Translations under genes and position numbers: made by a program
Notes under the pieces: generated by a model
The model's database searches: none
Told to the model about the DNA's origin: nothing
What the model saw: the letters and a program-made list of their open reading frames with translations, nothing else
In this document: positions 14,306 to 24,190 of the stretch, piece after piece
Layout: every line of letters begins with the position of its first letter
Position numbering within the stretch: position 1 is the first letter of the stretch
Assembly (NCBI GenBank): GCA_000205985.2
Contig: GG729998.1
Span: 1 to 32,661 of the forward strand
Direction: 5' to 3'
DNA length: 32,661 nucleotides
Source of the DNA: an uncultured Candidatus Thioglobus sp.
GTDB lineage: Bacteria > Pseudomonadota > Gammaproteobacteria > PS1 > Pseudothioglobaceae

Positions 14306-14632
14306 TTAGTAGCCACCTTTACGTTTGGTTTCTGGTAGGCCTGCAACTTTACCTGCTTGTTTAGCAGGGCCTTTCGGAAATAAGGCGTACAACTCTTTAG
14401 TGGTTAATTTACCATCCCAATCGCCTTTTAAGCCTTTAACCATATTGCGTTCATTGGGTTGATTGGCATTATTATTAATATACTCATCACGTAAGAAGTT
14501 AATTAATTTAAAGCTCTCAGCAGTTAAATTAACTCCTTCTTCCTCTGCAAGTTCTGCAGCGATGTCTTCATTCCATTCATTAAGGTCAACTAGGTAACCG
14601 TGACCGTCTCTTTCTAAATCAGCTAATGCCAT
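14306..14632 (-). CDS. DsrC/TusE-family protein lacking both redox cysteines
   Basis: A 108-residue DsrC-fold protein: GYLVDLNEWNEDIA near residue 12, a FKLINFLRDEY helix near 41 and the C-terminal arm LYALFPKGPAKQAGKVAGLP (81-100). DsrC carries sulfur as a trisulfide with DsrAB, and TusE relays sulfur for tRNA thiolation; both depend on a cysteine in the C-terminal arm. Here the arm has Gly94 where CysB (ACKIAGLP) should be and GGY at the end where GCV should be. There is no cysteine in the whole protein. Cysteine-free DsrC relatives have been named RspA and proposed to be regulatory. GGAGG precedes the ATG. It stands alone, divergent from lepB. Confidence 0.9.
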   Translation of the reverse strand: MALADLERDGHGYLVDLNEWNEDIAAELAEEEGVNLTAESFKLINFLRDEYINNNANQPNERNMVKGLKGDWDGKLTTKELYALFPKGPAKQAGKVAGLPETKRKGGY

Positions 14633-21759: not shown

Positions 21760-22791
21760 TTATTTCCAAATATCTACTGTAACACCTTTGGCGCGAAGCT
21801 TATCTGAGCGCTCTTCAAGGTAACGTTGAAAGCTTGATTGGTGTTTATAACCTTCAGTGACAACGTATTCGATAATTCCGGTGAAGTGATATTCTTTAAA
21901 GAAAGCATCTTTTCGGATAATTTCCCCTCCCTGTTTGTCAAAGAAAACAACCGCTGGTTTGTAGGTGAGTTTTAGATCTTCATACCATGCTTTAGCAGTG
22001 GTACGCTTACCTGATGGGGCGATGAGTTTTTCATCTGACAAAGCGTTAAGCTGTACCACTTGCATACCTTTGAACAGTTCTTTGGTTTGTTTGAGCTGCA
22101 TAAGGGTTTGGTGGAAAGTGTCGCATTCTTGGCAGTTTGGCTCTTCAAAAAACACGGCTAGGTAGTTTTGTGCAGGCAGTGTTTTGCTACGCGCCAACAT
22201 GTGCGGACCGGATTCAAACAACGGGTTTTTGTTAAGTATACCAATCGTGTCTTTTTTTAGACTGTTAGCGTAATTAGCAAAAGATTGATTAAGGTATTTT
22301 TTAGTTGATACGTAATCAAGCACAGTGTGCATTTTTTCAATTGATTGGTAGCCATTAAGTCTAAGCACAACATCGCCTTTTGAATTTAAGAACAGGGTGG
22401 TTGGCGTGAATTGCACTTTCATAAATGCTGAGAATTCTTTTTCACTAAATTCACGACCTGTCCAATCAACCAGATCTCGATCGCCCCACATATTGGTTTC
22501 AATGACATCAAAGTCTTTCTGTAATTTGGCAACAATGGCTTTATCGCTAAAGTTGTCTTCAACCAATTTGGCACAATAAGGACAACCATTTTGATGAAAG
22601 TAGATCATCACATGTTTGTTTTCATCAGTGGCCTCTTCTAGATCTTCAGAAAAATCCATAAAGGTGGTTTTAAACCAATTGGGCAACACATCAACGACTT
22701 TAGCACCCAAGTAGTCACCTTCCTTGGCTTCAGGCGCTGAGAGCGAAGGCTGTAAAAACAATAAAGAAAAAATTAGAAATAAAATACGCAT
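21760..22791 (-). CDS. Secreted protein with two thioredoxin-like CxxC domains
   Basis: The 343-residue product begins with a signal peptide (about 1-19). It then has two thioredoxin-fold segments. The first (about 40-165) carries C70-P-Y-C73 in YFHQNGCPYCAKL and a cis-proline at QFTPTTLF (P130). The second (about 205-320) carries C220-Q-E-C223 and the cis-proline context YKPAVVFF (P279). The first half resembles SoxW-like or DUF-type periplasmic thioredoxins of sulfur oxidisers. Both motifs look redox-competent, suggesting a periplasmic thiol-disulfide carrier or reductase. A partner such as DsbD/CcdA is not in the window. The gene is upstream neighbour-free on its strand except for the Cas6-like gene 47 bases before it, so co-transcription is possible. 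Confidence 0.85.
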   Translation of the reverse strand: MRILFLIFSLLFLQPSLSAPEAKEGDYLGAKVVDVLPNWFKTTFMDFSEDLEEATDENKHVMIYFHQNGCPYCAKLVEDNFSDKAIVAKLQKDFDVIETNMWGDRDLVDWTGREFSEKEFSAFMKVQFTPTTLFLNSKGDVVLRLNGYQSIEKMHTVLDYVSTKKYLNQSFANYANSLKKDTIGILNKNPLFESGPHMLARSKTLPAQNYLAVFFEEPNCQECDTFHQTLMQLKQTKELFKGMQVVQLNALSDEKLIAPSGKRTTAKAWYEDLKLTYKPAVVFFDKQGGEIIRKDAFFKEYHFTGIIEYVVTEGYKHQSSFQRYLEERSDKLRAKGVTVDIWK

Positions 22792-22838: not shown

Positions 22839-23510
22839 TCAAGTAGCGGTTATATCGTCAATGCCTTTTTGTGGAATGAATAGCCCACAACCAAGCAATC
22901 GATGATTACCAATGCCTTTTTCTTGCAAGGTAACCGACTCTATTTTTTTTAGATTGGCTACCATTAAAGCACGAGTGTGAATAGTGCCATCTGGGGTTTT
23001 GATGCTTCTTTCCAAACCGGCCATCATCTTTTTAGGTGTGATGCCAAGTGCTTGGAGCTGATTGTAGGAATTTTTTAAAAAATCCTCTTCACTGAGTTTT
23101 TCATCGCAAGCGACGTGTTTTGCAAATAAAGCATTTAAATCACTTAATAATTTTGGTGCATGTGCTTTGACTATTTGGATTTGATATTCGCCTAAATCAA
23201 GTGTTTTTCCAATCAACAACTGAGTGTCGGCTAGTCTTTCTTTTGGCACTCTAATGCTTAATTTAGAGCGTTTAGAGGGGTAATAAAACCCAGATTCATG
23301 GTCTTGCTGCCAACCATTGCCATCAGCAACGCTGATATCGTGAATTCCGGCCTTTACGTCATCTAGCCAGGGAAGGTGCTCAAGCAGTGCTTTGCAGAGT
23401 AAATAAGCGTGATCAATGGGTAAGATTTTGCAGTGAATATTAAACACGGCATCCTGCACATCTTCAGGCAGAGTAAAATGTTGTTCTTTAGGGTCTTCTT
23501 GCCAAAACAT
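22839..23510 (-). CDS. cas6: Stand-alone Cas6/Cmx6-family protein (orphan CRISPR endoribonuclease-like)
   Basis: The 223-residue protein resembles the type I-MYXAN Cas6/Cmx6 family, which processes CRISPR precursor RNA. Recognisable parts are FNIHCKILPIDHAYLL (23-38; His34 is a catalytic candidate), NGWQ near 65, a LGITPKKMMAGLERSI block (155-170), TRALMVANLK (179-188) and the Cas6 glycine-rich loop GIGNHRLLGCGLFIPQKG (199-216). No CRISPR repeats and no other cas gene occur in the window. The start codon lies only 14 bases from the divergent rnc start, and no ribosome site is visible. The family call is by motif memory; nuclease activity is not shown. Confidence 0.75.
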   Translation of the reverse strand: MFWQEDPKEQHFTLPEDVQDAVFNIHCKILPIDHAYLLCKALLEHLPWLDDVKAGIHDISVADGNGWQQDHESGFYYPSKRSKLSIRVPKERLADTQLLIGKTLDLGEYQIQIVKAHAPKLLSDLNALFAKHVACDEKLSEEDFLKNSYNQLQALGITPKKMMAGLERSIKTPDGTIHTRALMVANLKKIESVTLQEKGIGNHRLLGCGLFIPQKGIDDITAT

Positions 23511-23524
23511 AGATTTTAATTTTA

Positions 23525-24190
23525 ATGAAAAAACTTGAGCAAAAAATAGATTATCAGTTTAAAGATATTTCTTTATTGAAATTAGCGCTTACTCATCGTA
23601 GTGTTGGTAAGAATAATAATGAGCGTTTAGAGTTTTTAGGCGATAGTATTTTAGGTTTGGTAATTTCTCGTGAACTTTATAAGCGTTTTACTCATGTTGA
23701 TGAGGGCAAGCTGTCAAGATTACGATCGCATTTAGTCAGAGGGCAAACACTAGCACAACTAGCCAGCACATTAGATTTATCCAATATTTTGATTTTGGGT
23801 TCTGGAGAGTTAAAAAGTGGCGGTTTTAGGCGTGAATCCATTCAGGCGGATGTGGTTGAGGCTATTTTTGGCGCGGTTTTTTTGGACTCTGATTTTGATA
23901 CGGTGAACACGGTTATTTTGAAGTTGTACAAAGAACGACTGGATATCATTAATCCGAACGATTCATTGAAAGATTTTAAAACTCAGTTGCAGGAGTATTT
24001 GCAAAAGCGTGGCAATGCTTTGCCAAAGTATGAGCTGATCAAAACCGTGGGAAAAGACCATAATGCGGTATTTACCATTAACTGCTCTTTGCAAGACCAA
24101 AATATGAAAGTTAAACAAAAAGCCACCAGCATCAAGAGAGCTGAGCAATCTTGTGCCCAGGCTTTATTGGATAGGTTGAGCGCATCATGA
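23525..24190 (+). CDS. rnc: Ribonuclease III
   Basis: RNase III cleaves double-stranded RNA in rRNA maturation and mRNA decay. The 221 residues have the N-terminal nuclease domain with the signature ERLEFLGDSILGLVIS (33-48; metal-binding Glu and Asp), ADVVEAIFGAVFLDS for the second acidic pair, and a C-terminal dsRNA-binding domain (about 150-219). The leader has no obvious Shine-Dalgarno. It is divergent from the Cas6-like gene with only 14 bases between start codons, and it heads rnc-era-recO-pdxJ-acpS. The stop overlaps era by four bases. Confidence 0.97.
   Translation: MKKLEQKIDYQFKDISLLKLALTHRSVGKNNNERLEFLGDSILGLVISRELYKRFTHVDEGKLSRLRSHLVRGQTLAQLASTLDLSNILILGSGELKSGGFRRESIQADVVEAIFGAVFLDSDFDTVNTVILKLYKERLDIINPNDSLKDFKTQLQEYLQKRGNALPKYELIKTVGKDHNAVFTINCSLQDQNMKVKQKATSIKRAEQSCAQALLDRLSAS

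Follow-up and report, generated by a model that had tools for sequence, protein, structure and literature searches.

The window, that is the whole stretch of 32,661 nucleotides analysed here, comes from an uncultured Candidatus Thioglobus sp. and carries on its reverse strand an ATG-started gene for a protein related to Cas6, the nuclease that processes crRNAs (Table 1). Given that the N-terminus of this protein, MFWQED, is conserved across relatives, the start codon is correctly called. The preliminary description had placed the gene head-to-head with rnc, its start codon 14 bases away, in a window with neither a repeat array nor another cas gene, and we could confirm this: the window has no direct repeats of at least 20 nt within 200 bp and none of cas1, cas3, cas5, cas7 or cas8. 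By running Rfam and ARAGORN on it, we found one ordinary tRNA and nothing else.

Table 1. Features of the window discussed in the text.
Feature	Position	Strand	Remarks
DsrC/TusE-family paralogue	14306..14632	-	Lacks the two C-terminal cysteines; tail LPETKRKGGY; PF04358 101.6 bits, TIGR03342 87.7 bits
Exported-looking protein with thioredoxin-like domains	21760..22791	-	Lies downstream of cas6 in most of the Thioglobaceae; other families show no such link
Cas6-family protein, dsr-associated subgroup	22839..23510	-	223 aa; His34 as presumed catalytic residue; glycine-rich loop in residues 199-213
Interval between the start codons of divergent cas6 and rnc	23511..23524		14 bp; L040 (same genus) is the only other locus with this length
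rnc (RNase III), divergent neighbour	23525..24190	+	Family-wide in Thioglobaceae, not elsewhere

First, we compared the protein with Cas6 profiles and structures. The PF09559 profile matched with 168.2 bits (cut-off 26.7), the cas6_cmx6 profile TIGR02807 with 113.2 bits (equivalog cut-off 98.85) and the PADLOC Cas6 model with 198.4 bits, so that all three recognise it and both curated Pfam/NCBIfam cut-offs are passed. The AlphaFold model (pLDDT 88.6, pTM 0.83) is predicted to adopt the tandem ferredoxin-like domains of the Cas6 fold, and its best 40 PDB matches were all chains of the Cas6 type or from Cascade complexes; the Cas6 of a type I-B CAST (8fcu/8fcj) ranked first, with 8fcu_B on top (TM 0.78/0.81). 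Both the glycine-rich loop and the candidate His34 pointed out in the preliminary description are real: 110 of 112 relatives keep the histidine, and nearly all keep the GxG..LGCGxFxP loop, whose GCG is present in 109-112 of 112. Together, these data identify the product as a genuine member of the Cas6 family.

Second, we looked for a CRISPR system in the genome of the window (G000; 1.17 Mb, 85.5% complete). Genome-wide there was no Cas1 and no DevR-type Cas7, Cas3, Cas5 and Cas8 being judged from the window only, and a scan whose positive control was detected found no CRISPR array in the 585 kb it covered out of 1,173 kb. In these searches and in the window, which lacks repeats, no hidden CRISPR system served by the Cas6-like protein was found. 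DevR-type Cas7 is absent from all 57 genomes compared, this one included, and a complete relative of 1.03 Mb (G024) has the Cas6-like gene with neither a CRISPR array nor Cas1. Complete 1.0-Mb genomes of clam symbionts keep the gene as well, which indicates that it outlasted strong genome reduction. Because a Cas6-family protein is retained without CRISPR in compact genomes, the domesticated role proposed in the preliminary description is well founded; what that proposal missed is the partner, namely sulfur oxidation.

The partner emerged from a class sample of 370 Gammaproteobacteria genomes, for which at least 90% completeness was requested and to which the genome of the window was added at 85.5%. 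PF09559 is carried by 128 of them (125 of 363 among the high-quality ones), and DsrB, called at E < 1e-40, by 126, of which 122 pass the curated cut-off. Both were found in 122 genomes, Cas6 only in 6, DsrB only in 4 and neither in 238, an association with an odds ratio of 1210 and a p value (1.5e-84) that overstates independence since shared ancestry is uncorrected. One Cas6-only genome, G388, has a true CRISPR-cas locus with an array and cas genes, and its Cas6 has neither WQED nor GNGW; the other five (G117, G146, G298, G314 and G369) show dsr-type neighbours, in four cases on short or contig-end pieces. The presence of dsr without Cas6 in G221, which is 99% complete, indicates that the Cas6-like gene is not strictly required. 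In a phylum-wide sample of 299, thin for genomes outside the class, there were 4 matches, and the 3 besides the window all lie at dsr loci. No relative turned up when viral contigs were scanned with two patterns, and a viral origin or spread of the gene was discarded on that result.

Within Thioglobaceae (36 genomes), both genes occur in 25, Cas6 only in 1, dsr only in 3 (drafts, 86-93% complete) and neither in 7 (p = 1e-4), so that the Cas6-like gene tracks dsr though it is sited away from the dsr locus. The co-occurrence with dsrB to be expected of a gene associated with the reverse dissimilatory sulfite reductase (rDsr) pathway is therefore found in the class and within this family alike; placement at the dsr locus is not found in the genome of the window, where dsr lies on contig C3 and cas6 on contig C39.

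Outside Thioglobaceae, the usual site of the gene is the dsr locus itself, divergent from dsrABEFHC, with a TauD-like gene on one side and a DsrC paralogue without cysteines on the other. The usual order in the 75 loci of these other families is dsrM-C-H-F-E-B-A, divergent from the TauD-like gene, a 61-aa protein, the Cas6-like gene and the DsrC paralogue, and we counted dsrA in 58 of these loci and the TauD-like gene, the 61-aa protein and the paralogue in 60 each. A protein of roughly 240 aa, which from its look only is TPR-like, sometimes lies between the 61-aa protein and the Cas6-like gene. The 61-aa protein, upstream of the Cas6-like gene (e.g. L084:9795-9980; L287 near 9169), has no Pfam/NCBIfam match.

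The window also encodes a paralogue of this kind (Table 1), the same kind of gene that other families have directly after cas6 at most of their dsr loci. The C-terminal cysteine pair is missing in 60 of 60 paralogues, 56 of which end in KGGY; of the operon-borne DsrC proteins, 41 of 44 have the pair. Cysteine-less DsrC/TusE homologues go by the name of RspA type. In 17 Thioglobaceae genomes the paralogue lies 6-19 kb from cas6, and a non-adjacent partner of 235 aa is present in 27 of the 36 genomes of the family, including that of the window, and absent mainly where dsr is absent. As a side observation, dsrA in the genome of the window (L223, 1386-2691) is split over two frames, by an assembly error or because the gene is broken.

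In a tree built with a quick method, 47 dsr-type proteins were parted from the CRISPR-type side, which consists of eight rows only, by one branch (SH-aLRT 98), and the window protein was nested within the dsr type. Residues specific to the dsr type include W3, GNGW, R81, E141 and K161, while His34, R87, Q196 and the glycine loop are common to both types. As judged by alignment and tree, the dsr-type proteins are a group apart from CRISPR-linked Cas6, with a signature of their own. Pairs of Thioglobaceae genes gave dN/dS values of 0.07-0.17, which indicates purifying selection. TIGR02807, a CRISPR equivalog model, matched all 44 dsr-associated proteins scanned, and such members are thus likely to be named CRISPR proteins in public annotation.

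The short distance to rnc had been read in the preliminary description as shared or interleaved promoters and as a hint of co-regulation of two ribonuclease genes. Our comparison speaks against this as a general rule, and it was rejected: the pairing is limited to Thioglobaceae, of 37 loci measured, 36 have the two start codons 36-218 bp apart, and the gap has no sigma-70-like promoter match. Relatives within the family keep the rnc neighbour, and those outside it usually have dsr genes and the DsrC paralogue instead.

Then, we searched the dsr regions for a possible RNA target. In most dsr loci, dsrC is immediately followed by a stable hairpin (e.g. L084, L086, L223 and L279), many of these hairpins being GC-rich and without a T-tract. 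Its median z score between dsrC and dsrM is about -2.4 to -2.7 (39 loci), other gaps of the dsr operon lying near 0 to -1.8, and it is found in the genome of the window and in G024. It is also found in G142, a dsr-positive draft where Cas6 was not found, and its sequence is not conserved; for both reasons it may be no more than a common intercistronic hairpin, and we regard it as an improbable target of the Cas6-like protein. A k-mer search of the gaps in dsr regions gave nothing between dsrC and dsrM and a weak excess between cas6 and rspA. A sequence-conserved RNA hairpin as target was hence rejected, the strong signal being a palindrome upstream of dsrA, TATCCCNNNNGGGATA, perfect in 15 of 53 dsr loci (loci L075-L220). 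Elsewhere in the dsr loci examined it is nearly absent, and over 1.03 Mb, 17 perfect copies fall within the dsrA gap and a single one beyond it. The genome of the window has it 129 bp upstream of dsrA (L223, on contig C3, 1241-1256); the window itself does not. The palindrome looks like a DNA operator of dsr, which could co-regulate dsr and the operon of the Cas6-like gene where the two are divergent.

Taking all our observations together, we consider it likely that this Cas6-family protein is an accessory of rDsr sulfur oxidation in Gammaproteobacteria with RNA as its ligand. A separate branch of Cas6 would have left CRISPR to become an accessory of the rDsr pathway, and the Cas6 site, with His34 and the glycine loop, would still bind and probably cut an RNA hairpin. 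From the Cas6 fold of the predicted model and the presumed catalytic histidine we infer that RNA is bound or cut; whether cleavage is active is an evenly balanced question. With the DsrC paralogue, the protein may process or regulate RNA of sulfur-oxidation genes, for example at the dsrC-dsrM hairpin. A more tentative version, to which we give somewhat less than even weight, is that the branch was recruited as a dedicated RNA processor of sulfur oxidation that cuts a specific dsr-linked RNA with the paralogue. In Thioglobaceae, the gene would have moved from the dsr locus to beside rnc with its function kept.

A reading with a smaller but real share of probability keeps the link to rDsr without any RNA enzyme: the Cas6 fold would be a non-catalytic platform, for example by partnering the DsrC paralogue in the control of dsr transcription or in sulfur relay. 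The strongest subgroup-specific residues (GNGW, R81, E141 and K161) indeed differ from those common with CRISPR Cas6, and the paralogue is among the steadiest partners, but conservation of His34 and of the RNA-contacting glycine loop is as strict as among the CRISPR-linked Cas6 proteins, which makes this reading rather unlikely. Since most members sit at the dsr locus, the gene might also be a passenger that linkage carries along, its own role being an unrelated housekeeping one. However, in Thioglobaceae it lies elsewhere and yet tracks dsr, as does the non-adjacent 235-aa partner, and we hold this to be very unlikely. Finally, it is hardly credible that the protein acts in trans, chiefly in crRNA processing, for CRISPR systems located at other sites of the genome: Cas1 is carried by 149 of the 370 class genomes and by 60 of the 128 with Cas6, but the other 68 do without it (Cas1 only 89, neither 153), complete G024 has neither array nor Cas1, and the link to Cas1 is negligible (odds ratio 1.5, p = 0.07) compared with the overwhelming one to dsr. 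A 19-repeat array about 3 kb from the dsr-type gene of G361 (L164, 1892-3108) favours such a role and possibly lies there by chance.

If the accessory reading is true, it would mean that core energy metabolism, in obligate symbionts too, has taken over an RNase of CRISPR; in the more tentative version, a Cas protein would have a role outside immunity and transposition. This would concern a single-copy branch of Cas6 tied to dsr in about one third of the sampled Gammaproteobacteria genomes, and it suggests that rDsr sulfur oxidation has a post-transcriptional layer. In addition, labelling of dsr-type proteins as CRISPR components by TIGR02807 would mislead surveys of CRISPR occurrence.

The full-text literature search, which covered titles and the beginnings of abstracts, returned no report of a link between Cas6 and dsr, its partial coverage making this weak evidence of novelty. 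Papers retrieved by it deal with a lineage-specific type I-E system (PMC7540712), a type I-F system with cas6f (PMC5728499), cas6 as a table entry (PMC10952691), CRISPR classification (PMC12669027), the type I-B Cascade of Synechocystis PCC 6714 (PMC11096372) and high dsrC/tusE expression in a symbiont (PMC13137333). The reverse Dsr cluster dsrABEFHCMKLJOP has been described, for instance, for the Solemya velum symbiont (PMC4287430), and the searched part of this literature does not mention a Cas6-like component; in our loci, the genes for the Cas6-like protein, the TauD-like protein and the DsrC paralogue devoid of cysteines lie divergently beside the cluster and co-occur with it. The same paper notes that dsrC homologues without the two cysteines exist outside the dsr operon (PMC4287430). 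Like RspA-type DsrC/TusE homologues, the paralogue here lacks the C-terminal cysteine pair, and it differs in its KGGY tail and its tie to the Cas6-like gene, which we did not find described in the parts searched. With the Cas6/Cmx6 of type I-B (I-MYXAN) systems, for which we took the Synechocystis PCC 6714 plasmid pSYLB (L345) and the structure 8fcj as examples, the dsr type has in common the fold, the glycine loop, the His34 region, the overall length and a score above the equivalog cut-off. In contrast to them, it adjoins neither cas3, cas8, cas5 or cas7 nor an array, and unlike CRISPR-linked Cas6 it carries the N-terminal WQED together with GNGW, R81, E141 and K161, on a tree branch of its own.
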